A DNA stretch of 64,000 nt from an uncultured Bacteroidales bacterium (GTDB taxonomy: Bacteria > Bacteroidota > Bacteroidia > Bacteroidales > UBA932), in NCBI GenBank assembly GCA_900320545.1, contig ONSU01000014.1, positions 22,534 to 86,533 of the forward strand, written 5' to 3'. Positions 1 through 46,572 of the stretch are shown here, piece after piece. Every line of letters starts with the position of its first letter. The stretch's first letter is position 1. A model generated the notes under the pieces. It saw only the letters and a list, made by a program, of their open reading frames with translations, made no database searches and had not been told where the DNA came from. The translations under genes and the position numbers were made by a program.

Positions 1-2
1 TG

Positions 3-1889
3 GCCTATTCCACCGACCGCGCTACCGTAACCATCGCCCGCGCACTGGCCGGATATGCCACCGAGGGTAAACTTCCCGCGAGCGTCGAGACGGATTATCT
101 CTCCGCTTCCACTTCGCTCCAGGCCTTTGCCCAGCAGTTCGTAACCTACCTCGACGTCTGGGAGCAGAATGTCGCCGACATCCTCAGCGCCGACGGTGAC
201 GCCTGCGAAGACAACAACAACGCCTGGGAGCGGGTCCACTTCATTCCTATCCCGCAGGATACCCGCAACGACTGGGTCAAGCAGGGCTCGCAGTTCGATC
301 CCAAGTACCAGCCCTACCACACCATCAACATCGAAGGTACCGAATACACCGCCGCCCAGTGCTGGGAGATCGCCATCCGCGGTATGATGAACCTCTGTAC
401 GACCGAGGGCGAGGCCTTCCTCAACACGATGGCCCGCAACACCCCGATCCCTTACGGCAACGGCATGTCCCTGACCAAGGCTCCGATCAGCCGTCCTTCC
501 GCCGCCTGCATCTGGGGTAAATATCCCTGGTATGAGAAGAAGGGCGACGGCGGCCCCGTCACCTACAACGGACAGAAACTCGAGCAGGTCGGCATCGACT
601 TCATCCTCAAGTGCTGCTCCTGGCACGTCACCCGCAGCTTCATCAGCAACGACAACAACTCCCCGCTCGGAATGATCGGCAACTTCCAGCAGTTCGGCAC
701 CGGCAGCGGCACCCTCAACCTCGAGGGCTACGAAGGACTCATCTGCCCGATGAGAGAGTTCCTTATCCTCGCCCGTTTCTACAAATACATCCTCGACCAC
801 AACATTAACTCCAACGTCTATGACGCCCTCAAGGACGTGAAGGTCGATTTCGAACTCTACAACCAGGAGCTGCCCGTCTTCGTCAGCCCCGAGAGCCTGA
901 CCTTCGAGGCCACGCCGGACGGCGCAAAGACCATCACGCTCACGGCCAAAGAGGCATGGACAGCCACCACCGAAAACGAGTGGATCCATCTTGACAAATC
1001 TTCCGGCGCCGCCGGCGATGTCACCATCAGCGTCACCGTCGACAATTACACGGTAGAGGCAAGCCGTACGGGCATTGTCACGATCGCGGCCGGGGATTAT
1101 TCCAAGAACGTCTCCATCACCCAGAATGCCTGGGTCAAGCCCGCCGAGGCCACCATCAAGGATTTCGCCACCGCTTTCGTCGGCTGCCTCACGGTCTGGC
1201 AGAATACGGTCGGTATCGTCGATGCGGATGGTACGCATAATGGGAATACCGCTTGGCAGAACGTCCACCTCATCCCGATCGTCAACCCGAAGAACCCTTA
1301 TAACAACGAGGGTAACCAGTATGATCAGAAATATGCTCCGTTCTGGACGGCGAAAGTCCTCGACAACGAGTACACTTCCAACCAGTGCTGGGAGATTGCG
1401 CTCCGCGGCCTGATGGACCTCTGCACCGTCGAAGGCGACGAGCATCTGGTCAATATGGTCTCCAGGAACAACAATATGTACACGCTGGGCAACGGTGTCT
1501 CGATGAGCGCTCCGATGCCGAACTATTCCTCCAACAACTGCTGGGGTGAATATCCCTGGTACGAGTCCAACAATACCGTCAAGTACAACGGCGCCGACAT
1601 TACCGAGGTCGGCATCGAGTTCCTCCTCAAGTGCGCCTCCTGGCACTGTGTCCGCGGCCTGATCAAGAACAGCGGCAATACCAGCCCGCTCAACAAGATC
1701 GGCAACTACCAGGAATTCGGCACCAACACCTCCGGCACGCTTGTTCTGGAAGGCTACAGCGGCTATATCGCCGCCATGCGCGAGTTCCTCATCATGGCCC
1801 GTATTTACAAGTACATCCTCGACAACAACATCGAGAATAATGTCTATGATGCCATCAAGGATGTCAAGGTAGATTTCGCACTCTACTAG
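3..1889 (+). CDS. Secreted protein with two copies of a ~240-residue domain, a BACON domain and pseudomurein-binding-repeat-like segments (5' partial)
   Basis: The frame is open from base 3, so the start and signal peptide lie before the window; 628 residues are visible. Residues 1-35 contain a GYATEGKLPASV segment that resembles the pseudomurein-binding repeat (PMBR) of methanogen surface proteins. Two homologous domains follow (about 45-283 and 390-628). Both carry QCWEIA(I/L)RG(M/L)M(N/D)LC near the start, WGxYPWYE in the middle, a KC.SWH segment, and end in MREFLI(L/M)AR.YKYILD and DVKVDF.LY. Between them, about 292-385, lies a BACON-type beta domain (FVSPESLTFEA...WTATTENEWIHL), a fold usually linked to carbohydrate or mucin binding. 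The same ~240-residue domain ends the protein at 6059-7546. A perfect hairpin separates this gene from the operon that follows. Role inferred: a surface protein binding a cell-wall polymer. No catalytic motif was recognised. Confidence 0.8.
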   Translation, partial: AYSTDRATVTIARALAGYATEGKLPASVETDYLSASTSLQAFAQQFVTYLDVWEQNVADILSADGDACEDNNNAWERVHFIPIPQDTRNDWVKQGSQFDPKYQPYHTINIEGTEYTAAQCWEIAIRGMMNLCTTEGEAFLNTMARNTPIPYGNGMSLTKAPISRPSAACIWGKYPWYEKKGDGGPVTYNGQKLEQVGIDFILKCCSWHVTRSFISNDNNSPLGMIGNFQQFGTGSGTLNLEGYEGLICPMREFLILARFYKYILDHNINSNVYDALKDVKVDFELYNQELPVFVSPESLTFEATPDGAKTITLTAKEAWTATTENEWIHLDKSSGAAGDVTISVTVDNYTVEASRTGIVTIAAGDYSKNVSITQNAWVKPAEATIKDFATAFVGCLTVWQNTVGIVDADGTHNGNTAWQNVHLIPIVNPKNPYNNEGNQYDQKYAPFWTAKVLDNEYTSNQCWEIALRGLMDLCTVEGDEHLVNMVSRNNNMYTLGNGVSMSAPMPNYSSNNCWGEYPWYESNNTVKYNGADITEVGIEFLLKCASWHCVRGLIKNSGNTSPLNKIGNYQEFGTNTSGTLVLEGYSGYIAAMREFLIMARIYKYILDNNIENNVYDAIKDVKVDFALY

Positions 1890-1899
1890 TCTTTTTATT

Positions 1900-1927
1900 C
1901 CCGGAGGGCGGTGATACGCCCTCCGGG
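1900..1927 (+). other. Perfect 11-bp stem-loop between two lipoprotein genes
   Basis: CCCGGAGGGCG pairs with CGCCCTCCGGG around a six-base loop. No T-run follows on the plus strand, and the T-run present (1892-1896) lies upstream of the stem. It is therefore not a classic terminator. It may stabilise or process a transcript joining the gene at 3-1889 to the operon starting at 1949. Confidence 0.55.
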
Positions 1928-1948
1928 ATCCAATTAAACCAAACTGAC

Positions 1949-2953
1949 ATGAAGAAAATTCTCGTGCTCCTGAGCCTTGTTATTATAGCCCTTGGCTGTA
2001 ACAAAGAGCCGAACCCCGGCAAGCCGGACACCCCTGCCATACCCGCCTGGGAAGATACCAGCGCCGGCTGGCTCGTCCAGTCCCTCGCTGACGCGTATTC
2101 CCAGTGGGAGGAGAACAACAAGCTGCCATCTACCGTCAACTGGGAGGGCGTGAATATCTTTATAGGAGAATATGTCCGGGCCGGCATTTCGCTGGCGCTC
2201 AAGATGATCGACCACCCCCAGGACTGGATGGTCGGGAGTGTGGATTATCCTTCCGCCACCTTCGGCCTGACGACGGACGTCCCCTTCCTCCCGCAGGAAG
2301 TACCTTTCTCCGCCTTCGTGGAGCTGCTGCGCAAACAGTACAGGAATATGGAGGAAAACAAAGCCGTGGCGCTGAATATGGAGATCCCGGGCTATGAAGG
2401 CAGCAACCTGTCCACGACAGGCCTCGCCGTCATGCTCTGCCGCGGATTTGCCTGGTGGGTGGAGCACGGGGCTTTCCCGGAGAATATCAACACCTGGGAA
2501 GCCTCCTACACCCACGCGACCAGAAACTGCCAGGTTTCCTCGACCGTGGTGAAAGCCGCGCGGGATGCAGCCTGGACAAGAGCGGGTGTCACCGAAGCTT
2601 CCACCGACCGCGAGAAGGCCGTCGCCATCTTCAATTACGCCCGTGATGAATGGACCTGGCTCGATTACGCCAACACGTCCAGGGGCGCCGAAAAGACCAT
2701 CAACGACAAAAAGGGCAACTGCTGCGACCTTTCCCACGCGGTCATCGCGATGGCCCGCCTGAGCGGCATTCCCGCCCGCTATTTTCACGCCCAGTGCCAC
2801 TATTCCAGCGGATACATCGGCCACGTCGTATCCCAGATCTTCGTAGAAGGAAAGTGGTATATGGCCGACGCCTCCAACGACGGCAATACTTTCGGCAATG
2901 TGAAGTTTACAGATTATACCGGTTTGCATTATTATGAAGAGTTGCCTTTCTAA
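1949..2953 (+). CDS. Lipoprotein with PMBR-like segments and a transglutaminase-fold C-H-D peptidase domain; candidate pseudomurein endoisopeptidase
   Basis: 334 residues. A signal peptide with lipobox IIALGC places the lipid Cys at residue 17. Residues 40-190 hold helical repeats of PMBR type: YSQWEENNKLPSTV near 50-63 and a second GAFPENINTW near 174-183. The C-terminal domain has the full catalytic set of the transglutaminase-like superfamily: Cys258 in KGNCCDLSH, His292 in GHVVSQIFVEGKWY and Asp307 in MADAS. From memory, wording such as GIPARY.HA(Q/K)C..SSG, the Trp-Tyr after Gly-Lys, and AD(A)S..N.FG is typical of methanogen adhesin-like proteins and of the phage pseudomurein endoisopeptidases PeiW and PeiP, which cut the Ala-epsilon-Lys isopeptide bond. 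Family and triad are seen; pseudomurein as substrate is inferred from the repeats and neighbours. A protein crosslinking or ordinary peptidase role remains possible. The next gene overlaps its end by 20 bases. Confidence 0.82.
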   Translation: MKKILVLLSLVIIALGCNKEPNPGKPDTPAIPAWEDTSAGWLVQSLADAYSQWEENNKLPSTVNWEGVNIFIGEYVRAGISLALKMIDHPQDWMVGSVDYPSATFGLTTDVPFLPQEVPFSAFVELLRKQYRNMEENKAVALNMEIPGYEGSNLSTTGLAVMLCRGFAWWVEHGAFPENINTWEASYTHATRNCQVSSTVVKAARDAAWTRAGVTEASTDREKAVAIFNYARDEWTWLDYANTSRGAEKTINDKKGNCCDLSHAVIAMARLSGIPARYFHAQCHYSSGYIGHVVSQIFVEGKWYMADASNDGNTFGNVKFTDYTGLHYYEELPF

Positions 2954-5030
2954 ACTGATTCTTTGCATTTTTTCCGTCCTGATCATTCTTCCCGCCTGCG
3001 AAAGGCAGGGAAATGATGCCGCCGCCGACAAAATGGACGGCATCGTCATCAACGAAGTGTCTCCTTCCCCGGGAATCGGAAAGGAAGGATGGGTGGAACT
3101 CTACAACAAGAGCGAACACACGATCCGGCTCAAGGGCCTCCGTATCCTGCTCTCGACCAATGAGTTCATCGAAGAGAAAGTGGCGACCCTCAAGGAGGGC
3201 GAAATCAAGGCGGGCGGCTTCTACCTCGTCAGCACCGAAGCGGTCGATTTCTCGCTTCCCTTCCTTCGCGCCACCTTTACCGAACTCGGCATCGCCGATG
3301 CCGACGGCTACTCGCTGGACGTCTTCACCCCGTCCATCGACATCGGATCGACGGAGAAACCGGCGGACGGCGGAAGTTACGCCCGTCTCCCGGACGCAAC
3401 CGGCGACTGGACGCTGACCGCGACCGCAACCCCGGGCAGCCCCAATTTCAAACTGGTCCCCCATACGCTTACCAGCCTCGTCATCAACGAAGTCTGCCCC
3501 TCGGGCAAATGGATTGAAATCTACAACGCCGCCGCCTTCGAGCAGAACCTCGAATACGCAATGTTCACCAGCCCCGGAAACGTCCTGCTCTGCCAGGTTC
3601 CCGCCGGCGTGACCATCGAGGCCGGCGGCCATCTCGCGCTCGACTGTGAAGGAGAGGATGCCAACTTCAGCAATTTCACCTTCTACGACAACACGGGCTC
3701 CAAGAAGATCGTGGAGTTTTCCGCCTCGGGACTCGGGACGCTGTCCGAGGACGGTGCCTGGTGCCGCCTTCCCGACGGCACGGGAGCTTTCCGCACGACC
3801 ACAAGCCCCACAAAGGGGACCACGAACATCGTCGAAAGCAATTCGCTGACGGGCCTGGTCATCAACGAAGTGTCCCTCGCGGGCTGGGTCGAGGTGTGTA
3901 ATTCCTCCATCGAACAGATCAACGCCTCCGGCCTCGTGCTCAAATCCGGCTCCACCACCGTTGGGACCAAGGGGGCGACCTCCATCCCCGCAGGCGGCAA
4001 AGTCGTGTTCGACGTGGCCGTCACCGGCAACGAGACATTCAGGCTCTGCGGAAAGGACGGCACTGAGGTGAGTACTTTCTCCAATGGGGATGTGAAAAAA
4101 GATTCCCGCACGGCAAATGCAAGCACCTCCTGGAGCCGCCTCCCCGACGGCACCGGCAATTTTTACACCGTTCCGACCCCGACCAAGGGCGAGGCCAACT
4201 ACGGCATTGAGGAAGGCAACACCATCGCCATCTGGGTGCGCCGCTCCGACGCGATGACCTTCGACCTGGAAGGGCTCTGCAAGAACGGAATCGGCAACAT
4301 CATCCTCCACGAATGGGCTCTCAAGGACAACGGCACCGCAAAGGTCAACGCCATCTGCGCCAGGGCCCACCAGCTGGGCATGCGGGTCCACTTCTGGCTG
4401 CAGTGCTTCTGGTGGAACGACGACATCAAGTGGCGGCTGCCGGTGATCGACCGCAGCGGATCCACGCCCGCCCGCTACAACCAGGAACTCTTCGACGAAG
4501 TGATCGGCCGCGCACTCGGATATATGGACCTCGACATCGACGGCATCCACTTCGACTACATCCGCTTCGGCGGGACGGCCAGCAAGCACAACTGGCCCGA
4601 AGACGGCATCACGGGCATAGGAGCCATCACCGAATTCTGCCGTCAGGCCAACAGCCGGCTCAAGGGGAAGGATCCCGACATCATCCTCTCCGCCGCGTTG
4701 ATGGGAGAGCGGGGATCGCAGAACGCCTATGGCCAGGATCCCGCCCAGATGACCCAGTATATCGACGTGATCCTCCCGATGGCATACATCTCGTCCTACA
4801 ACTACTCCCAGAGCGTCAACGTGACCGTGGCCAACTGGTTCGCCGACCGTTGCAATGACAAACAGTGCTGGCACGGCATCTCGACATACAATTCCAACAC
4901 GCAGGGCCTCAGCAAGGCAGAACTCCTGCGCGACTGTTCCAATATCACTTCCTCCCGGGCCCACGGAATCGCGCTGTTCCGCTACGGACTCGGCGACATC
5001 CCCAACCTGACAGGAATGTTTGCCAGATGA
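2934..5030 (+). CDS. Lipoprotein with three lamin-tail-like domains and a C-terminal TIM-barrel glycoside-hydrolase-like domain
   Basis: 698 residues, beginning MKSCLSKLILCIFS and a lipobox ending IILPAC. Three lamin-tail (LTD) type beta domains follow, each opening with the signature (I/L)VINEV: around 36-175, 180-300 and 305-425. Each has a WVELYN-like strand and a SRLPDGTG-like end. Residues about 430-698 form a putative hydrolase barrel related to the next gene: WVRRSDAM, NIILHEWALKD, VHFWLQCF, DGIHFDYIRFGG (the Asp in a strand-end DYIR motif is a likely catalytic residue), LSAALM, YGQDPAQM and FRYG. The barrel resembles hydrolase-like domains I recall in Methanobrevibacter surface proteins. 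It lies in the operon, overlapping the preceding gene by 20 bases and the following by 4. Substrate unknown; a glycan chain of a cell wall is inferred. Confidence 0.8.
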   Translation: MKSCLSKLILCIFSVLIILPACERQGNDAAADKMDGIVINEVSPSPGIGKEGWVELYNKSEHTIRLKGLRILLSTNEFIEEKVATLKEGEIKAGGFYLVSTEAVDFSLPFLRATFTELGIADADGYSLDVFTPSIDIGSTEKPADGGSYARLPDATGDWTLTATATPGSPNFKLVPHTLTSLVINEVCPSGKWIEIYNAAAFEQNLEYAMFTSPGNVLLCQVPAGVTIEAGGHLALDCEGEDANFSNFTFYDNTGSKKIVEFSASGLGTLSEDGAWCRLPDGTGAFRTTTSPTKGTTNIVESNSLTGLVINEVSLAGWVEVCNSSIEQINASGLVLKSGSTTVGTKGATSIPAGGKVVFDVAVTGNETFRLCGKDGTEVSTFSNGDVKKDSRTANASTSWSRLPDGTGNFYTVPTPTKGEANYGIEEGNTIAIWVRRSDAMTFDLEGLCKNGIGNIILHEWALKDNGTAKVNAICARAHQLGMRVHFWLQCFWWNDDIKWRLPVIDRSGSTPARYNQELFDEVIGRALGYMDLDIDGIHFDYIRFGGTASKHNWPEDGITGIGAITEFCRQANSRLKGKDPDIILSAALMGERGSQNAYGQDPAQMTQYIDVILPMAYISSYNYSQSVNVTVANWFADRCNDKQCWHGISTYNSNTQGLSKAELLRDCSNITSSRAHGIALFRYGLGDIPNLTGMFAR

Positions 5031-5911
5031 TGAAAAGACTACTGTATCTGCTTGCCTTCCTCGCGGCGCTGGCCGCCTGTACCCGGACCTCCGTGAGCCC
5101 TCACGGGATCTGGCTATGGTCGAAGTATATGAACGAGGTGGATCTCGATTCCCTCGCCGCCAGGGATATCGATAATATCATCCTCCACGAGGTCTCTTTC
5201 GAGAAACACGGGGAGGACTCGACCCTGGCATTCATACGGGCCGCACAGAAAAAAGGGCTTAAGGTACACATCTGGTTCCAGTGCTTCTACAAAGACGGGA
5301 AATGGATCAATCCCGTGGATGATTCCCTCAACCGATATAAGCAGGAATACTTCGACGAGGTCATCGACCGGGCGGAAAAATATGCGAAGATGGGCGTAGA
5401 TGGCATCCACCTCGATTACATCCGCTTCGGCGGGACGGCCTACAGGCACAATCCGTCGGATTCCGTCACGGCGACCGGCTGCGTCACCGAATTCTGCCGG
5501 CAAATCCATCTGCGGCTCAAGGCCGTCCGGCCCGATATCGTCCTCTCCGCCGCCCTGATGCCCGAACCCGACAGCGAGTACTACTACGGTCAGGATCCCG
5601 CACAGATGGGGCAATACATCGACATCCTGATGCCGATGATCTATTATCACACCGGCAACTACCGCAAGAACGGTCTCGCATGGGCCCTTGAAGTGGCCGA
5701 TCATTTCGCCGAAAAGGGGGCTCCCGCCAGGGTTTGGGCCGGTCTCACGACCTATTATGATACCGACTCCACCCAGGTTGTCCCGATGACTGCGGACGAA
5801 ATCCTCGAGGACTGCCGCATCTTCGCCGACTCCACCCGCGCCGAGGGCATTGTCCTCTTCCGGTACGGTATCGGCGAATTGCCCGATTTAAATAGTTTAA
5901 ATTCCAAATAA
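5027..5911 (+). CDS. Lipoprotein, single-domain TIM-barrel glycoside-hydrolase-like protein
   Basis: 294 residues. The start is set at the ATGATG overlapping the previous stop; the longer upstream frame is an overlap shadow. A lipoprotein signal (MMKRLLYLLAFLAALAAC) is followed almost at once by the catalytic barrel: HGIWLWSKYM, NIILHEVSFEKHGED, VHIWFQCFYKDGKWINP, DGIHLDYIRFGGTAYRHNP, LSAALMPEPDSEYYYGQDP, ILMPMIYY, VWAGLTTY and VLFRYGIGE. It aligns over its length with the C-terminal barrel of the preceding gene, so the two are tandem paralogs, one with LTD modules and one minimal. The wording KVHIW.QCFYK.GKW.NP and the YYYGQD block are, from memory, the pattern of hydrolase-like domains in methanogen PMBR proteins. 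Transfer between archaea and bacteria in either direction is plausible. Its stop shares one base with the start of a short peptide gene. Confidence 0.82.
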   Translation: MMKRLLYLLAFLAALAACTRTSVSPHGIWLWSKYMNEVDLDSLAARDIDNIILHEVSFEKHGEDSTLAFIRAAQKKGLKVHIWFQCFYKDGKWINPVDDSLNRYKQEYFDEVIDRAEKYAKMGVDGIHLDYIRFGGTAYRHNPSDSVTATGCVTEFCRQIHLRLKAVRPDIVLSAALMPEPDSEYYYGQDPAQMGQYIDILMPMIYYHTGNYRKNGLAWALEVADHFAEKGAPARVWAGLTTYYDTDSTQVVPMTADEILEDCRIFADSTRAEGIVLFRYGIGELPDLNSLNSK

Positions 5912-6045
5912 TGATGAAAATCACGTACACATCCCCAACGCTACAAGTAATGCGGCTTGCAACACAAGCCGTGATCTGCCAGTCCGGGCAGCCTCAACCT
6001 TTCATCGACGACATGACGATTGAAGATGAATTACCTTTCGATTAA
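5911..6045 (+). CDS. Short 44-residue peptide of the 'MKxxYxxPxxxV' type
   Basis: Start at the ATGATG at 5911, sharing one base with the preceding stop (TAATG), and ending at TAA 6043-6045. The product begins MMKITYTSPTLQVMRLATQA and ends in an acidic tail IEDELPFD. Short peptides with a Lys-x-Tyr-x-x-Pro start, a hydrophobic middle and an acidic, Gly- or Asp-rich end are common in Bacteroidales next to fimbrillin-like genes, mostly unannotated. Position inside the operon with a tight overlap on one side and a 13-base gap on the other supports a real gene. Function unknown. Confidence 0.5.
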   Translation: MMKITYTSPTLQVMRLATQAVICQSGQPQPFIDDMTIEDELPFD

Positions 6046-6058
6046 AGCAGGAGCCGTT

Positions 6059-7546
6059 ATGAAAAAGATTCTTTTCACCTCGATTGCCGGTGCAATCCTT
6101 TGTATGGCCCTCTCTTGCCAGAAAGAGAATTTTATTCCCGCCGACGATATCAATAATTCCGATGTTCCCACAACGGGGTCAAGCGTCATCACGGCCGGAG
6201 TCGAAAAAACGAAAACCGCGCTCCAGGATGCCGGAAAGGTGTACTGGACCAACGGGGATGCCATTTGCGTAAATGGCATCACCTCGGCCGCGCTCGAATT
6301 GACCGAGCCCGTCGCCGCGGCTTCCTTTACCTTCGAGGGAATCCTTGCCGAGGAGAAGAAGGCCGTCTATCCCGCCACCGCCTGGACTTCAGACGGGACC
6401 GTCACGATTCCCGCCACGCAGGATGCGGGAACCAACGCTTCGTTCGCGGCCGGTGCCCTTCCGATGGTCGCCTATGCCGCCTCGGGCAACGACCTCACCT
6501 TCAAACATACGGCCGCCGTCATCAAACTCCAGCTCAAGAAGGGATTCACGTCCGACGAGATCGCCTATGCCGACTTCTTCGGCAACAACGACGAGCAGCT
6601 CAGCGGCGTGTTCTCGGTGGATTATGCGACCGGCGCCCTGACGCCCACCTCTACCGCCGCAGCCGATAAAAAAGTCCGCGTGACGATCGGAAAGACTCTC
6701 TCGAGCGAGGTCACTGCCGTCTATATCGCCGTCCCCGCCGCAACCTATTCCAACGGCTTCAAGATCAAGATCGTCGACATCAACGGCGTCACGATGACAA
6801 AGCGTGTAGGGACTTGTACATTGAAGAAAGGTTCCATTTATCCCACCCCGATCGACACTTTCGATGCAGACAATACCATCAAGGCGTTCGTGAAGTCCTA
6901 CGTAAATATCCTGAAAGTCTGGGAGAACACGACCGGTACTATTGATTTGATACAAGGGGAAAATTATTCCGGCGGTAGCTATAATGTAACGAATGCGCAT
7001 TATATTCCATCAACTACCACTATAATGGTTGGTGAGAATGTCTATAATACCGGCGATATGTATGAGCTGGCTCTTCGTTGCTATCTTCTCGTGCGGGGAT
7101 ACGATGGCCTTAATACGACTAAATATGGTAAAAACTCCATTCCTGCGCTGACCGGCGGGGCTGTCGGGATGAGTGAGACCATAATTCCCAATACGCATGA
7201 ATATTATTTTGGGACATCGCCCTATCTTGAAACACCTGGGAATGGTGGATATTTTTACACCCTGGACGGGAGCACTAAACTCTATCATACTGTAAAAGTA
7301 GCTGCTCTTGACAACTGGGCGATGCGTTCGCTGAATTTCCAGTCCGGCCATCCGACCACCAATATTTGTAGTTATAGTTCAGGACAACTTTCCGGTTTCG
7401 GCGGAAGTTTCTGTCCGATGAGAGCACTTGTTACTTACGCTTTCTTCTTCAAATATATGCTTGATAACGGCTATGACAAAGGTACAGAGGTCGGTAACAA
7501 CGTTTTACTCCGTTCCGAACTCTTTGGTAAAGAAGGTAATTATTGA
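6059..7546 (+). CDS. Fimbrillin-like lipoprotein ending in the repeated ~240-residue domain
   Basis: Start chosen at the ATG at 6059, preceded by AGGAG and giving a lipoprotein signal (MKKILFTSIAGAILCMALSC); upstream in-frame ATGs at 6020 and 6026 would bury it. 495 residues. Residues about 30-270 are fimbrillin-like: SVITAGVEKTKTAL, VYWTNGDAICVNG and FKHTAAVIKLQL are hallmark strands of Bacteroidales FimA/Mfa-type and related surface lipoproteins. From about 275 the protein switches to the domain found twice in the gene at 3-1889: FVKSYVNILKVWENTTG, YELALRCYLL, FCPMRALVTYAFFFKYMLDNG. DNA coding this second half (about 6940-7545) is visibly richer in A and T than its neighbours, as if joined by recombination. 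One base separates it from the kinase gene. Likely a surface-exposed binding protein. Confidence 0.78.
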   Translation: MKKILFTSIAGAILCMALSCQKENFIPADDINNSDVPTTGSSVITAGVEKTKTALQDAGKVYWTNGDAICVNGITSAALELTEPVAAASFTFEGILAEEKKAVYPATAWTSDGTVTIPATQDAGTNASFAAGALPMVAYAASGNDLTFKHTAAVIKLQLKKGFTSDEIAYADFFGNNDEQLSGVFSVDYATGALTPTSTAAADKKVRVTIGKTLSSEVTAVYIAVPAATYSNGFKIKIVDINGVTMTKRVGTCTLKKGSIYPTPIDTFDADNTIKAFVKSYVNILKVWENTTGTIDLIQGENYSGGSYNVTNAHYIPSTTTIMVGENVYNTGDMYELALRCYLLVRGYDGLNTTKYGKNSIPALTGGAVGMSETIIPNTHEYYFGTSPYLETPGNGGYFYTLDGSTKLYHTVKVAALDNWAMRSLNFQSGHPTTNICSYSSGQLSGFGGSFCPMRALVTYAFFFKYMLDNGYDKGTEVGNNVLLRSELFGKEGNY

Positions 7547-7547
7547 T

Positions 7548-8396
7548 ATGATTCTGATCGCTGACAGCGGCGCGACCAAGACCCAGTGGGCCTGCGTGAG
7601 TCCGGACGGGAAGAAGAAGACCGAGTTCTTCAGCCAGGGATATAACCCCAATTATATCTCCGGGCCGGAGATCGTGGCGGATATCCGGGCCACGATGCCC
7701 GCGGAGCTGGAGGCGGACGCCGTCCGGGAGATTTATTTCTACGGAGCGGGCGTGACGCCGATGCAATACGGGTTTATGGAGGAGACGCTGCGGAAAGTTT
7801 TCGGCAAGGCGGACAGGGTGTTCATCGCGATGGACACCCTCGCCTCCTGCCGGGCGCTGCTGCAGCGCGAGAGCGGTTTTGCCGCCATTCTGGGCACCGG
7901 ATCCAATTCCTGCCTGTACGACGGTGAGAATGAGGGGCTCAATGTGGATTCGTGCGGATTTATCCTCGGCGACGAAGGCAGCGGCGGCTATCTCGGCAAA
8001 CGGCTCATCACCGATTTCATCCGGGGCAACATGCCCGCGGCGGTGCACGAAATGGTGGGAAAGGTCATCGGGAAAAGCAATGAAGAACTCATTGACACCA
8101 TTTACACCAAGCCCTTTCCGAACCGCTTTTGCGCGCAATACGCCCGGCTCATCAGTGAGAATCTTGACTTCGACCCGTACTTCCCGGAACTGGTGAAGGA
8201 CGCCTTCCGGAAATTCTTCTCCCGGATTGTCACGCACTACCCCGACTATCAGCAGTACGCCTTCAACGCGGTAGGGTCCGTCGCATACTACTTCCGGCCC
8301 CTGCTGGAAGAAGTGGCGGCCGAATTCGGGATGAAGGTCGGCACCATCCTCCAGGCCCCGATGGAAGGGCTCATCCAATATCATCTGGCAAAGTAG
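7548..8396 (+). CDS. N-acetylglucosamine kinase-like protein (BadF/BadG/BcrA/BcrD ATPase family)
   Basis: 282 residues; start at the ATG one base after the previous stop, giving MILIADSGATKTQW, the phosphate-1 loop of the ASKHA fold. Further signatures: AMDTLASCRALLQ, an ILGTGSNS phosphate-2 loop, and GFILGDEGSGGYLGKRL, typical of N-acetylglucosamine/glucosamine kinases of Bacteroidetes. The predicted reaction is ATP-dependent 6-phosphorylation of an amino sugar in the cytoplasm. The gene is directly followed, after 3 bases, by a sugar permease, a pairing I know from amino-sugar or peptidoglycan-fragment salvage in this phylum. Placed after secreted hydrolases it would handle the GlcNAc set free. 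The exact sugar is inferred. Confidence 0.85.
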   Translation: MILIADSGATKTQWACVSPDGKKKTEFFSQGYNPNYISGPEIVADIRATMPAELEADAVREIYFYGAGVTPMQYGFMEETLRKVFGKADRVFIAMDTLASCRALLQRESGFAAILGTGSNSCLYDGENEGLNVDSCGFILGDEGSGGYLGKRLITDFIRGNMPAAVHEMVGKVIGKSNEELIDTIYTKPFPNRFCAQYARLISENLDFDPYFPELVKDAFRKFFSRIVTHYPDYQQYAFNAVGSVAYYFRPLLEEVAAEFGMKVGTILQAPMEGLIQYHLAK

Positions 8397-8399
8397 CGT

Positions 8400-9590
8400 A
8401 TGGCTAAAAACAAGTATCTGATCCCTTTGGCCTTCATCGGGTCAATGTTTTTCACGGTGGGATTCGCCGTGGGCATCAACGGCTACTTCGTCCCCTTCCT
8501 GGAGAACAACCTCAGCCTGACCTCCGCCCAGTCGTATCTGGTCATCGCGGCGACCTTCCTGGCCTTCCTGATCTTCAGCTTTCCGGCGGCGGGCATCATC
8601 GCGAAGGTCGGATACAAGCGGACGATGTCGCTGAGTTTCTTCCTGTTCGCGGTGGCCTTCGCCCTGTTTATCCCCGCGGCCCGGCTGGAGAGTTTCCCGC
8701 TGTACCTGGTGGCCTGTTTCCTCAGCGGAACGGCCAACACGATCCTGCAGGCGGCCATCAACCCGTACGTGACCATCCTCGGCCCCATCGACAGCGCTGC
8801 CCGGCGGATCAGCATCATGGGCATCTGCAACTCCTGCGCGCTGGCGCTCCCCTCAGTCTTTATCGCAGCCGTGACGCGGAAGCCGATCGAAGCCGTCGGC
8901 CTCACCGACCTGGACCTTCCGCTCTATATCATCATCGGAGTCGTCACCCTTCTTGGCGTCATCACCTTCTTCGCTCCGCTGGAGGAGATCAAGGCGGAAG
9001 GAGAGGAAAACGAAGAGGACTGTCCCTACGCCGCCGACAAGAAGAGCATCTGGCAGTTCCCGCACCTGGTACTGGGAGCCCTTGCCCTGTTTGTCTATGT
9101 GGGCGTGGAGAATCTGGCGCTCCTGACGGTGCTGGACTATGCCCAGGACCTGGGGCTTCCCAATCCGGAGAAATATACCGTCTGGCCGGGCATCGGGATG
9201 GCCGTCGGATATATCATCGGCATCATCTGTATTCCCCGGATCATCTCCCAGGTGAAGGCGCTCCGCATCTGCACGTGGGTGGCCGTGGTGGATTCGCTGC
9301 TAATCGTGCTCACCCCTCCCGCCGTATCCGTCTGGTGCGTGGCGCTCCTGAGTCTGGCCTGCTCGCTGATGTATCCCGCGATCTGGCCGCTCGCCATCAC
9401 CGAACTGGGGAAATTCACCAAGAAAGGCTCCTCGCTGCTGGTGGCGTCCATCGGCGGCGGAGCGCTGATCCCGCTGCTGTTCGGAGCCATCAAAGACTGG
9501 CTCGGCAGCCAGAACGCCTACTGGATCTGCCTGCCGTTCTATCTGTTGATCATGTTCTATGCGTATTACGGGTATAAGATACGCAAGTAG
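8400..9590 (+). CDS. Sugar MFS permease, FucP/GluP/NagP-like
   Basis: 396 residues with about twelve hydrophobic segments. Motifs of the FHS sugar:H+ symporter family: VGFAVGINGYFVPFL in helix 1, KVGYKRTMSLSFFLF after helix 2, ANTILQAAINPYVTILGP in helix 4 (family NPxxT-type signature), QFPHLVLGALALFVYVGVE and YPAIWPLAITELGKFTKKG. It is an inner-membrane importer of a neutral sugar such as glucose, galactose or GlcNAc. Immediate co-transcription with a GlcNAc-kinase-like gene favours GlcNAc. The 3' end overlaps the signal-peptide region of the next gene by 32 bases. Confidence 0.85.
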   Translation: MAKNKYLIPLAFIGSMFFTVGFAVGINGYFVPFLENNLSLTSAQSYLVIAATFLAFLIFSFPAAGIIAKVGYKRTMSLSFFLFAVAFALFIPAARLESFPLYLVACFLSGTANTILQAAINPYVTILGPIDSAARRISIMGICNSCALALPSVFIAAVTRKPIEAVGLTDLDLPLYIIIGVVTLLGVITFFAPLEEIKAEGEENEEDCPYAADKKSIWQFPHLVLGALALFVYVGVENLALLTVLDYAQDLGLPNPEKYTVWPGIGMAVGYIIGIICIPRIISQVKALRICTWVAVVDSLLIVLTPPAVSVWCVALLSLACSLMYPAIWPLAITELGKFTKKGSSLLVASIGGGALIPLLFGAIKDWLGSQNAYWICLPFYLLIMFYAYYGYKIRK

Positions 9591-10692
9591 CCTGCTGGCC
9601 GCGCTCCTGCTGGGAATCCGGGCCCTTGCCTGTACGACCGCGGTCGTATCGGCGGGGGCGTCTGCATCGGGACGTCCGATGCTCTGGAAGCAGCGGGATG
9701 CAGGGGATGCGTATAATACCATCGCATACGTCCGGGGGGGGAAGTATGGATTCACCGCCCTCTTCCCCACGGCGGATTCGCAGCATACCAAGGCCTATGC
9801 CGGCATCAACGAGGTCGGATTCGCCATCACCAACAACCTCTCCTACAACCTCCGCCCGGAAGGACAGGGCTACGGCGACACCCGGAACGGCCTGCTGATG
9901 GCGGAGGCCCTCGGTCGCTGCGCCACGGTGGAAGAGTTCCATGCCCTGCTGAAAAGCCGCCCGCACCCGATGCGGCTCTGCGCCAATTTCGGGGTGATCG
10001 ACGCGGAGGGCGGCGCCGCCTATTTCGAGGTGTCGGACGAGAAGATCGAGCGTTTCGACGTACCGGAAGGGGGCTGTCTCTTCCGGACCAATTTCTCGCT
10101 CTCGGGCGAATCCGGGCGCGGAAAAGGATACGAACGCTACGCCACGATGGAGACCTTGACGGCCCGGAAGGCATCTGCCGGTTTTGACGCCGCGTTTTTC
10201 CTTCACGCGGGCCGGAGTTATATCCGTGACGGAAAGGATATGCTCCGCCAAAGCAAGACCTCCCGGATAACAGAACATAACTTCATCCCGCGGACCACGA
10301 CCACCGCCAGCATCGTCATCGAAGGAGTTGGAAAGGGGGATGCGGCCGGCAGCGGAATGATGTGGTGCGCCGTCGGTTACACGCCCTGCTGCTATGCCGT
10401 GCCGGTCTGGGTGGCGGCAAAAGACGATCTTCCGGCCCTGCTTTCCGCCGACGCCCCCGCAAATCTCCTGGCCGTGAAATTATACTCGGTTCTCCACGAT
10501 GGCGACCAGGTGGACACGAAAGCCCTCCGGCGCATCATCCGCCGTGTGGAAAAGGCGGAGCGGCGGGAAATGAGCGCGGGACAGCGGCTCGACCGCAAAT
10601 GGCGATCCTCCGGGCTTGACCGCGAGGCGCTCCTTCAATATAACCGATCGGCCGAAGAACGCTTCCGCCGGTTCAAAACTGGCGTGCTATGA
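9559..10692 (+). CDS. Secreted Ntn-fold linear amide C-N hydrolase (C45/choloylglycine-hydrolase-like)
   Basis: 377 residues. An N-terminal signal segment (MRITGIRYASSLLAALLLGIR) runs directly into ALACTTAVVSAGASASGRPM. Removing the leader before Cys25 would expose it as the N-terminal nucleophile typical of this Ntn-hydrolase superfamily. Following signatures: LWKQRDAGD, INEVGFAITNNLSYN, LGRCATVEEFH and NFGVIDAEGGAAYFEV. Members cut amide bonds in acyl-amino acids, penicillins or bile salts; in Bacteroidetes the substrate is usually unknown. The start is kept although it overlaps the permease gene by 32 bases, because it alone gives the signal peptide. Within the operon it could cut amide-linked amino acids released from the wall polymer; this is inference. 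Confidence 0.78.
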   Translation: MRITGIRYASSLLAALLLGIRALACTTAVVSAGASASGRPMLWKQRDAGDAYNTIAYVRGGKYGFTALFPTADSQHTKAYAGINEVGFAITNNLSYNLRPEGQGYGDTRNGLLMAEALGRCATVEEFHALLKSRPHPMRLCANFGVIDAEGGAAYFEVSDEKIERFDVPEGGCLFRTNFSLSGESGRGKGYERYATMETLTARKASAGFDAAFFLHAGRSYIRDGKDMLRQSKTSRITEHNFIPRTTTTASIVIEGVGKGDAAGSGMMWCAVGYTPCCYAVPVWVAAKDDLPALLSADAPANLLAVKLYSVLHDGDQVDTKALRRIIRRVEKAERREMSAGQRLDRKWRSSGLDREALLQYNRSAEERFRRFKTGVL

Positions 10693-12029
10693 CCTTTTCT
10701 CCCTGGAGTCTGCTGGTGGATGCCGGCATCATTTCCCTGCTGCTCCTGCTGGGAAAACTGCTGCGCTCCAAGGTCCGGTTCATCCAACGGTTCTTCATCC
10801 CGCCGAGTCTGCTGGCCGGACTGTTCGGCCTCGTGCTGGGGCCGGAACTGCTGGGATGGCTGCCGCTGTCGAATCAGCTCGGCACATACGCCGGAATTCT
10901 CATCGCCCTGGTATTCAGTTGCATTCCCTTCACCTCCTCCCGGGCCGCGCAGGCGAAGGGTGAGGCCCGGATCGGCAGGATGTGGGCCTATTCCCAGGCC
11001 GGAATGCTGCTGCAGTGGGCACTCGGAGGCGGGCTCGGGCTCTGGTTCCTCTGCAAGTTCTGGCCCCTCGACGGCGCTTTCGGCCTGTCGATGCCGGCCG
11101 GCTTCTGCGGCGGGCACGGAACGGCGGCCGCCATCGGGGAATCCTTCGCCAACTACGGTTTCGAGGAGATGCAGTCCCTCGCAATGACCGCTGCGACGGT
11201 GGGCATCATCGCCTCCGTCGTGCTGGGGATGTGGCTGATCTCTCTGGGTGCCGCCCGGGGGAAAACCTCCTTCCTCTGCTCCTTCAACACCCTCGCCCCC
11301 GAACTCAAGACCGGTATTCTCCCCAAAGACAAACGGCTGAGTATGGGAGAGGCCTCTTTCTCCGCCATTTCGCTCGACTCGATGTCCTTCAATTTCGCCG
11401 TCATCGCCCTCACGGCCCTCGGCGGCTACGGACTCGCCAAGGGCATCGCCGCCCTGGTCCCCGCCCTCAAGCTGCCGGTTTTCAGCTGCGCCTTTATCGT
11501 GGGGCTGCTGGTCAGCCGGATCATCAGCCGGATCCGCGTCGAGGAACATCTCTCCAAACCCATCATCGGGCATTTCAACGGGGCCTTTACCGACTACCTC
11601 GTGGCATTCGGCGTCGCCTCCATCCGTCTCGAAGTCGTCGGACGCTACATCGTCCCGCTCTCGATTCTCCTCGCCGTCGGCCTGGTCCTCACACTGGTAT
11701 ATGTCTTCTGGATGGGCAGCCGCATCCATCGGAAATATCCGTTCGAGAAATCCATCTTTACCTGGGGATGGTTCACGGGCACGATGGCAATGGGCATCGC
11801 CCTGCTCCGCATCACCGATCCCGACGCCAAAAGCGGCACGCTGGACGACTATGCCTACGCCTACCTCTATATAGCCCCCGTGGAAATCGCCCTGGTGAGC
11901 CTCTCGCCACTTGCCTTCTACTACGGCTACGGATGGGCTTTCGTCACGGTCTGCGCCATTCTGGGCGCCGCCATCCTCGCCTTCGCCGCCCTTCGCGGCT
12001 GGCTGAAAAAACCTTCCGGAAATGAATAG
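10689..12029 (+). CDS. Sodium/glutamate symporter, GltS-like (ESS family)
   Basis: 446 residues, about ten to twelve membrane segments. It carries the ESS signature GFCGGHGTAAAIGESF near residues 137-152 and two inverted halves of five helices, which is the GltS layout. Predicted role: Na+-driven uptake of glutamate or a close relative through the inner membrane. It overlaps the hydrolase gene upstream by four bases and the fused peptidase gene downstream by eight, so it belongs to the same transcript. A glutamate importer beside an AbgB-like amidohydrolase is consistent with use of glutamate released from peptides. GltS assignment is strong; actual specificity may differ, as many Bacteroidetes ESS proteins are untested. 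Confidence 0.85.
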   Translation: MTFSPWSLLVDAGIISLLLLLGKLLRSKVRFIQRFFIPPSLLAGLFGLVLGPELLGWLPLSNQLGTYAGILIALVFSCIPFTSSRAAQAKGEARIGRMWAYSQAGMLLQWALGGGLGLWFLCKFWPLDGAFGLSMPAGFCGGHGTAAAIGESFANYGFEEMQSLAMTAATVGIIASVVLGMWLISLGAARGKTSFLCSFNTLAPELKTGILPKDKRLSMGEASFSAISLDSMSFNFAVIALTALGGYGLAKGIAALVPALKLPVFSCAFIVGLLVSRIISRIRVEEHLSKPIIGHFNGAFTDYLVAFGVASIRLEVVGRYIVPLSILLAVGLVLTLVYVFWMGSRIHRKYPFEKSIFTWGWFTGTMAMGIALLRITDPDAKSGTLDDYAYAYLYIAPVEIALVSLSPLAFYYGYGWAFVTVCAILGAAILAFAALRGWLKKPSGNE

Positions 12030-14655
12030 ACTATTTATCATCCTGAGCCTGCTGTGCCTCGCCGCGCTTCCCTCCGGGGGTGCCCGTCCGCCCAAAAAGG
12101 CGGCCGATCCGGGGATGCGGCATCTCGAGACCTCGTTCCACCTGTACGATTCCCTTCAGAAGAACATCTTCAATTATGCCGAAACGGCTTACAACGAGAC
12201 GCGGAGCGCGGCGCAGTGGATCGCCTTCCTGGAGGAGCACGGATTCAAGGTAGAGAAAGGCGTCGCTGGCATTCCCACCGCTTTTACGGCCAGTTTCGGG
12301 AGCGGCGCGCCGGTAATCGGAATGATGGCCGAATACGATGCCATCGCCGGGATGTCACAGGACACGGTGCCTTATCGGAAGGTGCTCGTCGAAGGGGCTC
12401 CGGGGCATGCCTGTGGGCACAATCTCCTCGGAACAGGATCCGTCGCCGGTGCCGTAGCCGTTTCCAAATGGCTTGCACAGGGACACAAGGGCACGGTAAA
12501 ACTGTTCGGATGCCCGGCCGAGGAAGGCGGTGGCGGCAAGGCCTATATGATGCGGGAAGGGGTGTTTGACGGGCTCGACGCGATGCTGGACTGGCATCCC
12601 GATACCCGGAATACGGTCAACAAGACATCCGGCCTTGCCAACGTGCAGGTCCGCTTTACCTTCTACGGCAAAAGTTCGCACGCCTCGGGGGCTCCCGAAG
12701 CCGGGCGCTCCGCCCTGGATGCCGTAGAGGCCTTCGACCATATGATGAACCTGATGAGGGAGCACGTCCCTCAGACTTCCCGCATCCATTATGTCATCAC
12801 GGAAGGCGGCAAAGCGCCGAATGTAGTCCCTGACAGGGCGTCGGTCCGGTACTTTTTCCGGAGTCCGTCCCGCGAGACGGTCCGGGATATCCTTTCCCGC
12901 GCCATCAAGGCCGCGGAAGGAGCGGCGATGGGCACGGGGACCACGATGGATTACGAACTGCTTTCCGGAAACTATGAGCGTCTGCCCAACGAGGCGATGG
13001 CCGGCATCGTCCAGCGGGCGCTCGACAAGGTGGGCGGCATCCATCTGGATGCACGGGAAATGGCCTTTGCGCGGGAAATGGCGTCTGTCTCCGGCATCGA
13101 CGCGGCGCTGATCGACAAACTCTCCGTCGTCGTCCCGCCCGCGGAGGAAGGCTATGAGGCCTATGTCTCCAGTGATGTCGGCAATGTGACCTGGGCCGTC
13201 CCGACGGGCAGTTTCCGCTATGCCTGCTTCGTTCCCGGCGGCGTCGGGCACAGCTGGCAGCAGGTCTCCGGCGGCGGAACCACGATCGGGACCAAAGGGG
13301 CGCTGGGCGCGGCAAAGGTGCTGTATCTCTCCGCCTTGGAATTGCTGAAAGATCCGGCCGCTCTCTCCGGGGTGCGGGAAGAATTCCTGGCCCGCAGGGG
13401 AAAGGACTTCCGGTTCGAGCCGATGATGGGCAACCGCCGTCCGCCGTTTCAGCCTGCGGCGACACTTTCAAGGACGATGCCCTCAGACATCACGGCAAAG
13501 GCGGAATTCCTCCCCGGCGGCATCACTTCCAAGGTCCCGGTGCAAACGCCCCGGGCCACGACTTCCGGGCTGACCGTCTTCTTACCATCCCCTTCCGTAA
13601 CCGACCAGGGCAACTCCGGCCGCTGCTGGTATTTCGCCACGGCGAATCTCCTGCGGGGTACGCGCACGTTCTCCGTCGTCTATCCCTATTTCTGGGATAT
13701 GATGGAAAAGGCCAACCTGTTTCTGGTCAACGTCTGGGAGCATCGAAAAGAGCCGGTCGACAGCCGCTATAACGAAGCGCTGATGCGCCGCCCGACCTGG
13801 GACGGCGGACATATGATGAATGCGCTGTACCTGATCCGCAAATACGGCATCGTCCCCGAAGAGGCGATGCCCGAGACCGCGACCTCGCAAAATACGGCCC
13901 CGCTCCTGCGCGAACTCCGGAAACTCCTGCGCGCCTACGGGCTCAGAATGCGGGAGACAACCGATCCGGAAGGACTTCGCAGAGAGGCCCTGACCGATGT
14001 CCGGCGCATCCTGGAAGCCACGCTGGGAACGCCGCCCGAAACCTTTACAGACAACGGCATTGTCTATACCCCGGATGGCTACCGGGACGCCATCCTGCCC
14101 GAAGGCGCTACGGAGCGTTACGTAATGCTGATGAACGATCCGCGACTCGACTTCCACAAGATGTACCGCGTAGAGGGGTCGCGCGCCGCCGCAGACGACG
14201 AGGAGTGGACCTTCCTCAACCTGCCCTGCGAGGAACTCGAAGCCCTCGGCGTCGCCTCCCTCAAGGGCGGTGATCGCTTCTATTTCACCTGCGACACCAA
14301 CGAAGACGGCCTCCCGGCAGAAGGCGTGTACGATCCGGCGCTCTTCCCGGTTGACTCCCTCCTGGGGGTAAGGGCGGGGATGAGCAAAGCGGAACGGTTC
14401 GAAAGCCGGGACCTCGTTTCCGCCCACGCGATGGCGATGGCGGGCGTCGGGATATCCGAGGGCCGCATCGAGAAATGGGTCAGCGAGAACAGTTTCGGCA
14501 CCGGACGCGGAGAGAACGGCTACATCGAAATGTCCGCCTCCTGGTGGCGCGCCTACCTGTTCCGGATGGCCGTCGACCGCAAATACCTCTCCCCGGAGCA
14601 GCTCCGCCTCACCGAAGGGGTCCCCGAGACCATCCCCTGGTGGAACTTGTATTAA
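12022..14655 (+). CDS. Fusion of an AbgB-like M20 amidohydrolase with a bleomycin-hydrolase-like (C1B) cysteine peptidase
   Basis: 877 residues in one frame, with a signal-like N terminus (MNRLFIILSLLCLAALPSGG). Residues about 35-480 are an M20 amidohydrolase of the aminobenzoyl-glutamate/indole-acetyl-amino-acid hydrolase type: GHACGHN (128-134), CPAEEGGGG (164-172), DWHPD (190-194) and GKSSHASGAPEAGRSALDAV. A short linker leads to a papain-fold C1B peptidase with Cys535 in QGNSGRCWYFA, His802 in SAHAMAMAG and Asn823 in ENSFG, which is the complete aminopeptidase C triad. Both active sites look intact. Standard families are separate proteins of about 450 residues each, so this is a true fusion. 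It would act in the periplasm if the leader is used, trimming peptides and removing an amide-linked residue such as glutamate. It overlaps the GltS-like gene by eight bases. Confidence 0.85.
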   Translation: MNRLFIILSLLCLAALPSGGARPPKKAADPGMRHLETSFHLYDSLQKNIFNYAETAYNETRSAAQWIAFLEEHGFKVEKGVAGIPTAFTASFGSGAPVIGMMAEYDAIAGMSQDTVPYRKVLVEGAPGHACGHNLLGTGSVAGAVAVSKWLAQGHKGTVKLFGCPAEEGGGGKAYMMREGVFDGLDAMLDWHPDTRNTVNKTSGLANVQVRFTFYGKSSHASGAPEAGRSALDAVEAFDHMMNLMREHVPQTSRIHYVITEGGKAPNVVPDRASVRYFFRSPSRETVRDILSRAIKAAEGAAMGTGTTMDYELLSGNYERLPNEAMAGIVQRALDKVGGIHLDAREMAFAREMASVSGIDAALIDKLSVVVPPAEEGYEAYVSSDVGNVTWAVPTGSFRYACFVPGGVGHSWQQVSGGGTTIGTKGALGAAKVLYLSALELLKDPAALSGVREEFLARRGKDFRFEPMMGNRRPPFQPAATLSRTMPSDITAKAEFLPGGITSKVPVQTPRATTSGLTVFLPSPSVTDQGNSGRCWYFATANLLRGTRTFSVVYPYFWDMMEKANLFLVNVWEHRKEPVDSRYNEALMRRPTWDGGHMMNALYLIRKYGIVPEEAMPETATSQNTAPLLRELRKLLRAYGLRMRETTDPEGLRREALTDVRRILEATLGTPPETFTDNGIVYTPDGYRDAILPEGATERYVMLMNDPRLDFHKMYRVEGSRAAADDEEWTFLNLPCEELEALGVASLKGGDRFYFTCDTNEDGLPAEGVYDPALFPVDSLLGVRAGMSKAERFESRDLVSAHAMAMAGVGISEGRIEKWVSENSFGTGRGENGYIEMSASWWRAYLFRMAVDRKYLSPEQLRLTEGVPETIPWWNLY

Positions 14656-19324: not shown

Positions 19325-19337
19325 CTCCTCCTTATTT

Positions 19338-45849: not shown

Positions 45850-45858
45850 ACGGAAATG

Positions 45859-46521: not shown

Positions 46522-46572
46522 TTTTATTTGTCTTAATTTGTGTAAAATTACAAAAAAATCCCCAATTCCCAA

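Follow-up and report, generated by a model that had tools for sequence, protein, structure and literature searches.

A candidate pseudomurein-utilisation locus in Bacteroidales with a methanogen-type endoisopeptidase-like protein

What use would an uncultured Bacteroidales bacterium have for a protein resembling the pseudomurein endoisopeptidases (Pei) of methanogen viruses, encoded in the midst of genes for sugar and peptide catabolism? The question is raised by a 64,000-nucleotide stretch of DNA (the window, C57:22534-86533, where C57 is the source contig, GenBank ONSU01000014.1) of a 2.55-Mb genome assembled in 58 contigs (GCA_900320545.1). A first-pass annotation, made from the letters of the window, had read the genes at its left end as an operon for degrading and consuming methanogen pseudomurein, and the computation described here supports this reading. 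Gene content, homology, neighbourhood conservation, conservation of a catalytic triad and a structural match, of domains and their order, to the enzyme PeiP were computed, and disclosed a conserved locus that joins a methanogen-type Pei-like enzyme and methanogen-type wall-binding repeats to an uptake-and-catabolism set. We consider it, with a probability of about 0.73, to be a Bacteroidales polysaccharide-utilisation locus for the pseudomurein of Methanobacteriales. As the first-pass annotation had supposed, no bacterial system of this kind was found in the open-licence literature, preprints not being covered.

The Pei-like protein (1949-2953) carries a Transglut_core domain (1.4e-17, 64.3 bits against a cut-off of 23), the sole match to this family in the genome at E 0.001, and the Cys-His-Asp triad of the isopeptidase domain proposed earlier was located at C258, H292 and D307. 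Its best match among 50,697 phage records (tblastn) was a 'pseudomurein-binding repeat protein' of Methanobacterium virus Drs3 (32.5% over 210 residues, 8e-25), with which it aligns from the pseudomurein-binding repeats (PMBR) through a shared terminal ELPF. A first profile of 13 rows, 12 from Bacteroidales plus Drs3, matched 115 of 120 genomes of Methanobacteriales, the order to which a Methanosphaera belongs; its strongest matches extended over almost the full profile, with E-values down to 1.7e-72 (at most 17 candidates per genome were scored). Among 391 genomes of the class to which the Clostridia metagenome-assembled genome (MAG) RGIG2228 belongs, 19 were matched by the same profile (at most five candidates per genome, as in the order-wide search given below); RGIG2228 was matched over nearly the full profile and the other 18 in the transglutaminase core alone, at 1.8e-16 or worse. 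As Drs3 was present in this profile, it was remade from 45 Bacteroidales rows alone. Scores were then 129-239 bits for the Pei proteins of methanogens, viruses and RGIG2228, against 32-92 bits for the 18 generic Clostridia transglutaminases, which gave no match worth a bit in the repeat region; the value of 92 is a sum over the two domains of one protein, and the next generic score is 57. A chance resemblance of transglutaminase cores was rejected in view of this gap in score and the length of the matches.

The residues involved were compared in an alignment whose methanogen rows were 30 loci among the matches listed plus a Methanosphaera protein, and whose generic rows were the 18 Clostridia transglutaminase loci. 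C258, H292 and D307 are invariant in 83 rows (45/45 Bacteroidales, 31/31 methanogen, 2/2 virus and 5/5 RGIG2228). Three further residues, C194, N257 and G291, separate the Pei rows from generic transglutaminases: each occurs in all 45 Bacteroidales rows, and they were found in 30, 31 and 31 of the 31 methanogen rows versus 0, 4 and 1 of the 18 generic ones. In a tree of 101 rows the Bacteroidales Pei rows formed one clade, with a value of 98 in the Shimodaira-Hasegawa-like approximate likelihood ratio test (SH-aLRT). A tree of 89 rows, made without eight generic transglutaminases and four near-identical Bacteroidales rows, gave this clade 100/98 (bootstrap/SH-aLRT) and split off the ten generic rows with 100/95; some long branches in it were flagged and it does not fix the direction of transfer. 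By sequence, the Pei-like protein is assigned to the PMBR-transglutaminase branch of Methanobacteriales and their viruses, with whose members it shares domain order, signature residues and long homology, although these relatives are archaeal or viral and we know of no catabolic neighbours for them.

The predicted structure pointed to PeiP and PeiW. The model (predicted local distance difference test, pLDDT, 88.2; predicted template-modelling score, pTM, 0.70) retrieved PeiP (8z4f) first among 350,542 PDB chains, with 310 columns and 2.8e-10, and PeiW (8jx4) at rank nine, in the structural comparison suggested by the first-pass annotation; PeiP of psiM2 was also the top match in a viral structure library. 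Both Pei structures sit in the PDB library used for the fold search, and a sequence search of solved structures returned no Pei structure, the window protein finding 3isr alone and the Methanosphaera protein 3isr and 9crn. A PHROGs scan of five proteins gave matches of 0.06 or worse. Instead of unrelated bacterial proteins only, then, the searches returned the Drs3 protein, methanogen homologues and PeiP as first structure. PeiW and PeiP are pseudomurein endoisopeptidases of proven activity, with optimum temperatures of 71 °C and 63 °C, respectively (PMC2989375). Like these enzymes (peptidase C71; phages psiM2 and psiM100), the window protein has N-terminal PMBR and a C-terminal Cys-His-Asp domain of papain/transglutaminase type; unlike them, it falls outside Pfam C71, has weak sequence similarity to them and is a bacterial lipoprotein encoded in a utilisation locus, where they are lysis proteins of phages. 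The lysin PeiR, from a Methanobrevibacter ruminantium provirus, likewise combines PMBR with a cysteine peptidase (PMC6189367), but, compared by description alone, it is a phage gene product whose catalytic domain is Pfam C39 and not of the transglutaminase type. PeiW genes are also present in gut archaeal viruses (PMC9800368).

The same features could be taken to describe an attachment system, in which PMBR lipoproteins would fasten the cell to methanogens with a view to hydrogen transfer, while the enzyme of transglutaminase fold would remodel or cross-link the wall and not digest it. PMBR is indeed a binding module, the fold is common to cross-linking transglutaminases, and PMBR-transglutaminase proteins of two gut methanogens have been listed as 'Group III' adhesin-like proteins (PMC11532034). 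The top structural match is, however, a hydrolase, and most of the 44 related loci described below pair these genes with exo-hexosaminidases, kinase, permease and peptidases; attachment as the function of the locus appears very unlikely.

The presence of PMBR-like repeats in the lipoproteins, claimed by the first-pass annotation, was borne out for two of them and not for the third. In profile-profile comparison (hhalign) with the methanogen PMBR region, the family of the Pei-like protein gave 98.7% over 179 columns, corresponding to a triple-PMBR block, and the N-terminus of the family of the first lipoprotein (1-1889) gave 98.8%, six unrelated control families giving 1.2% or less. A hidden Markov model (HMM) of 81 methanogen and virus repeats matched the repeat region in 33 of 45 Bacteroidales rows (E 0.1 or lower), the match to the window protein being 0.0013 over 10 residues; one extra match (L079) fell in the catalytic part. 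PMB domains with three motifs bind pseudomurein cells and not intact murein particles (PMC3124540), and such motifs were noted earlier in a few bacteria (PMC3124540; PMC2989375). The lipoprotein 6059-7546 had no Pfam match and, taken alone, gave 0.1% with the methanogen PMBR region and 100% with an unnamed module of the first lipoprotein; its family alignment reached 99.9% with the PMBR-bearing N-terminus of the first lipoprotein because it includes relatives of greater length, L065 among them. For its own C-terminal module, the first lipoprotein gave no match to methanogen PMBR (12%, hhalign), and in relatives repeats 2-3 of the profile of this lipoprotein found weak matches inside that module. 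The unnamed module, of about 200-240 amino acids (aa), is common to the 1-1889 (two copies) and 6059-7546 lipoproteins and was without Pfam match in the proteins scanned.

All named genes of the window are present as long unbroken plus-strand frames (Table 1). Several more large frames, among them 25703-28690, 39076-41988 and 43723-46536, lie in the stretch 25703-64000. The other functions proposed earlier stand: the two TIM-barrel hydrolases are recognised by DUF4015, the N-acetylglucosamine-type kinase by a BadF-type call with a weak Pfam score, and the sugar permease, N-terminal-nucleophile (Ntn) amide hydrolase, glutamate symporter and amidohydrolase/peptidase fusion by NagP-like, C45, Glt_symporter and M20 plus C1B calls. 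Overlaps or gaps of at most 13 bases had been stated for the whole run from 1949 to 14655; this is correct except after 5911, where 147 bases precede the following ATG (6059), the remaining junctions ranging from -32 to +3. The ATG start of that lipoprotein is inferred, a TTG at 6020 being the alternative. The window cuts the operon, as it opens inside the first lipoprotein, whose whole gene (C57:22059-24422, BACON domain 7.5e-9) begins 475 bases ahead of it, and six further genes of the same strand lie upstream on the contig. From SusC to the Pei-like gene the gaps are 13, 3, -4, -4, 17, 33 and 59 bases. Adjacent SusC and SusD genes thus stand on one strand with glycan enzymes, as in a SusC/SusD polysaccharide-utilisation locus, and these two genes together with the GH20 pair and the MurQ-like gene strengthen the consumption part of the reading. 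With other such loci of Bacteroidota it shares SusC, SusD, lipoproteins, glycosidases, kinase and permease in one run; unlike them, it has an isopeptidase and PMBR binding modules and an archaeal cell wall as proposed target.

Table 1 Features of the locus. Positions are those of the window, or of the source contig where preceded by C57.
Feature	Position	Strand	Domains or basis of assignment
DeoR-type regulator, SDF symporter, GH88-like gene	ahead of SusC	opposite	
SusC	C57:11168-14245	+	Plug and CarbopepD domains
SusD	C57:14259-16175	+	SusD 5.7e-47
Ceramidase-like hydrolase	C57:16179-17528	+	just below Pfam cut-off
GH20 pair	C57:17525-19333, 19330-21180	+	
MurQ-family protein	C57:21198-22025	+	
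First lipoprotein, 3' part of 787-aa gene	1..1889	+	N-terminal triple PMBR block, BACON domain, unnamed module (two copies)
Pei-like lipoprotein, 334 aa	1949..2953	+	three PMBR-like repeats, then C-terminal transglutaminase/isopeptidase-fold domain; C-terminus ELPF
C258 codon, predicted nucleophile of Cys-His-Asp triad	2720..2722	+	alignment
H292 codon, triad histidine	2822..2824	+	alignment
D307 codon, triad aspartate	2867..2869	+	alignment
Lipoprotein, three lamin-tail domains (LTD) and C-terminal DUF4015-type TIM-barrel glycosidase domain	2934..5030	+	LTD 2.4e-19 (3 stretches), DUF4015 2.1e-11
Lipoprotein TIM-barrel glycosidase (DUF4015/GHL10/GH18-like)	5030..5911	+	DUF4015 4.3e-10 (slightly longer frame scanned)
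Lipoprotein with unnamed C-terminal module of first lipoprotein	6059..7546	+	blastp to first lipoprotein 1.4e-10
BadF-family sugar kinase, N-acetylglucosamine-kinase-like	7548..8396	+	PF01869 0.0079 (below cut-off); NF046058 NagK 1.8e-8 (below equivalog cut-off)
Major facilitator superfamily (MFS) sugar permease, NagP/GluP-like	8400..9590	+	NF046060 NagP 1.1e-81 (275 bits, cut-off 625); TIGR01272 gluP above cut-off
Ntn-type C45/AAT-family amide hydrolase, signal sequence	9559..10692	+	PF03417 7.7e-7; NF040521 3.5e-16 (below cut-off)
Sodium/glutamate symporter, GltS family	10689..12029	+	PF03616 (Glt_symporter) 2.9e-15
M20 amidohydrolase fused to C1B (bleomycin-hydrolase-like) peptidase	12022..14655	+	PF03051 3.4e-71, M20 9.8e-11; TIGR01891 above cut-off

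Related loci were sought in 84,980 species with two sequence patterns, one of them GNCCDL[TS]H, which favour this subfamily; 46 of 78 pattern matches were confirmed, and the scan may omit records near the genome of the window. It gave 44 loci in Bacteroidales/Bacteroidia (from 43 MAGs), one in Methanosphaera and one in Clostridia. The survey of gene order proposed by the first-pass annotation found most of the 44 loci with the same neighbours, detected by blastp to the operon proteins of the window in flanks of up to 10 kb, many loci ending at a contig edge. The BadF kinase and the 5030-5911-type glycosidase were each present in 38 loci, the first lipoprotein in 37, the permease in 36, MurQ in 32, the two GH20 enzymes in 32 and 31, the C45 enzyme in 28, GltS in 24 and the M20-C1B fusion in 23; lower counts were obtained for SusD (11), the LTD glycosidase (9), the second lipoprotein (8), the ceramidase-like protein (7) and SusC (4). 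Owing to the length of the flanks, distant genes are under-counted. As the cluster recurs across genomes, its arrangement is not due to chance. Contamination of MAGs by methanogen DNA was likewise rejected, because Bacteroidales utilisation genes flank Pei in these loci.

Carriers are rare. Among 299 genomes of the family, a sample of a larger group, 13 carried Pei, in 2 of 25 genera, and 12 of these 13 overlap with the 44-locus set; in the order-wide search the genome of the window was the sole carrier among 393. For 17 of the 44 loci the record names an animal or implies one through a species name: eight are from goat, two each from water buffalo, yak and horse, and one each from water deer, reindeer and chicken; the others bear project codes. 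Methanobacteriales inhabit such animal guts. In one goat-omasum MAG a single contig (JAFRSW010000022.1) holds a pair of Pei genes separated by about 17.6 kb, one of them flanked on both sides by SusC/SusD-like genes. The sole archaeal locus of the scan, the Methanosphaera protein (L083:822-2720), combines Ig-like domains with a Pei-type domain and two PMBR.

The Clostridia genome presents a different picture. RGIG2228, a MAG of about 1.7 Mb from goat colon, contains 36 matches to the Pei/PMBR profile; five of these extend as far as the catalytic end of Pei, and 13 are long frames of 1038-2266 aa that match in the repeats. It also has 27 PMBR matches, 13 of them above cut-off, and 42 dockerin domains, and one protein combines dockerin, Transglut_core and a PMBR match below cut-off. 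A cellulosome-like complex for archaeal walls is possible in this organism, binning errors being possible in a MAG. We hold the odds to be even that at least two unrelated gut groups eat methanogens, Bacteroidales by means of a pseudomurein locus whose isopeptidase and binding repeats came from methanogens or from methanogen viruses, and a Clostridia lineage by means of dockerin-bearing PMBR/Pei proteins that resemble a cellulosome for archaeal walls.

The sugar-processing genes of the window's locus leave room for another substrate. MurQ normally acts on muramic acid, which pseudomurein does not contain, and murein recovery clusters of MurQ, kinase and transporter occur in Bacteroidota, as in Tannerella murTKQ. 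The locus resembles them in its MurQ-family etherase, BadF kinase and transporter, so that GH20, BadF kinase and MurQ might recover N-acetylglucosamine (GlcNAc) and N-acetylmuramic acid (MurNAc) from lysed bacteria, the Pei-like enzyme and the PMBR block having been acquired from elsewhere and adapted to the cross-links of murein. Murein is the main rival substrate because of the usual specificity of MurQ and because the GH20-MurQ-BadF module was found without Pei in nine of the 299 family genomes. In addition, the glycosidase 5030-5911 (model pLDDT 91.5) had Cwp19, which we take to be a peptidoglycan hydrolase, as its nearest PDB structure, then PgaB (13-15% identity), with chitinases, GH191 enzymes and the spore-cortex enzyme SleL behind. 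The MurQ-like protein exceeds the cut-off of the MurNAc-6-phosphate etherase subfamily NF003915 (287.8 against 168), but it stays below that of the equivalog TIGR00274 (241 against 302). A comparison with nine canonical copies set the operon type apart at 29 positions, a number that includes two gaps, with changes at canonically fixed positions such as S87G, P100N and A119N (each in 22/22 operon-type rows) and R121V (21/22; L146 numbering), while two glutamates, presumably catalytic in MurQ, were retained as judged by eye. Furthermore, unlike in murein recovery clusters, a canonical copy lies elsewhere, as the genome has a second and better-scoring MurQ at C22:70801-71601, with a BadF kinase and also an MFS-like transporter close by. 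That locus also holds a SusC-like gene and a beta-lactamase/histidine-phosphatase fusion, its SusD-like gene and MFS-like transporter being recognised by eye. No lysozyme or muramoyl-amidase was found by Pfam among the operon proteins scanned, and the Pei/PMBR family is otherwise methanogen or viral in the sets searched. On balance a murein-scavenging function is unlikely.

The operon-type MurQ is not unique to Pei carriers. At 60% identity or more it was found in 22 of the 299 family genomes, namely in all 13 carriers at 69% or more and in nine Pei-less genomes at 60-70%, others among the matches listed reaching at most 51%. No match to Pei or to the first lipoprotein was found within the fetched stretch of the nine Pei-less loci, five of which have the permease and seven the C45 enzyme. 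Since the sugar module occurs there, it is not tied to Pei, and it may serve GlcNAc-containing polymers generally. The locus is best read as this GH20-MurQ-kinase module joined to a captured binding-and-cutting pair of archaeal or viral type.

A number of results count against pseudomurein as the substrate. The strongest is the MurQ-like gene itself, which would be expected for murein, and the presence of the module in the nine Pei-less loci belongs with it, as does the binding of PMB domains to lysozyme-treated remnants of the Lactococcus lactis wall (PMC3124540). No enzyme for N-acetyltalosaminuronic acid was recognised in the locus. PF09373, the Pfam family of PMBR, was absent from the ten window proteins at E 1, and the entire genome yielded no match to it at E 10; the PF09373 check proposed by the first-pass annotation was thus negative in its plain form, but relatives of the Pei-like protein came just below cut-off (3.2e-5, 1.4e-4 and 2.7e-4) and the profile-profile comparison was positive. 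The failure of Pfam to see real PMBR has a precedent in PeiR, which is active on methanogens and whose two PMBR were found only at E 0.11 (PMC6189367). Pfam C71 (PF12386) likewise had no match in the Pei-like protein at E 1; among the 13 rows of the first profile Drs3 alone matched it (0.00039, 20.7 of 22 bits), PeiP itself giving 6.3e-96. In a three-sequence search the Bacteroidales profile gave 8.5e-6 with PeiW and 0.0067 with PeiP, and hhalign gave it 41% with the proven C71 enzymes, where methanogen rows reached 88% and generic transglutaminases 20%. The Cys-His-Asp triad is not specific, because C258, H292 and D307 have counterparts in 14, 18 and 11 of the 18 generic transglutaminases. 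The TM-scores of the model to PeiP are low (0.33/0.36, root-mean-square deviation 15.7 Å), so the match concerns domains and domain order and not a rigid overall shape; third in the fold search comes 3isr, a transglutaminase-like protein of generic type from Cytophaga (9.5e-8, 160 columns). Finally, no activity assay of the closer methanogen relatives, in the PMBR-transglutaminase branch, was found in the literature consulted.

With pseudomurein as the preferred substrate, the enzymatic steps and the surface location can be proposed as follows. The first lipoprotein and the Pei-like protein, each with a triple PMBR, would hold the methanogen wall at the cell surface; lipid anchoring of the operon enzymes was judged from signal and Cys motifs read by eye. 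The Pei-like enzyme would cleave Ala-epsilon-Lys cross-links through C258-H292-D307, and the two TIM-barrel lipoproteins would cut the glycan. Fragments would be imported by SusC/SusD; in the periplasm N-acetylhexosamines would be removed by the GH20 pair, and sugar-peptide and peptide bonds split by the ceramidase-like, C45 and M20-C1B hydrolases. The NagP-like permease, the BadF kinase and the divergent MurQ would supply metabolism with the sugars, while glutamate would enter through the GltS-type symporter. Such a set of enzymes might also act as a weapon, lysing competing methanogens with nutrition only secondary, given that Pei enzymes lyse methanogens (PMC2989375). Carriers and methanogens share gut habitats; a large part of the operon nevertheless serves catabolism and uptake, its enzymes seem to be lipid-anchored and not freely secreted, and a weapon is scarcely probable.

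If the pseudomurein reading is true, the locus would be a set of genes that lets bacteria digest and eat an archaeal cell wall, and it would provide methanogen turnover in the rumen and gut with a bacterial consumer, a trophic link leading from methanogens to bacteria. It would also be a gut-bacterial source of pseudomurein enzymes, of use in methane mitigation and in opening methanogen cells. Talosaminuronic acid would then have a catabolic route, possibly by way of the divergent MurQ, and the catabolism of N-acetyltalosaminuronic acid would become testable.

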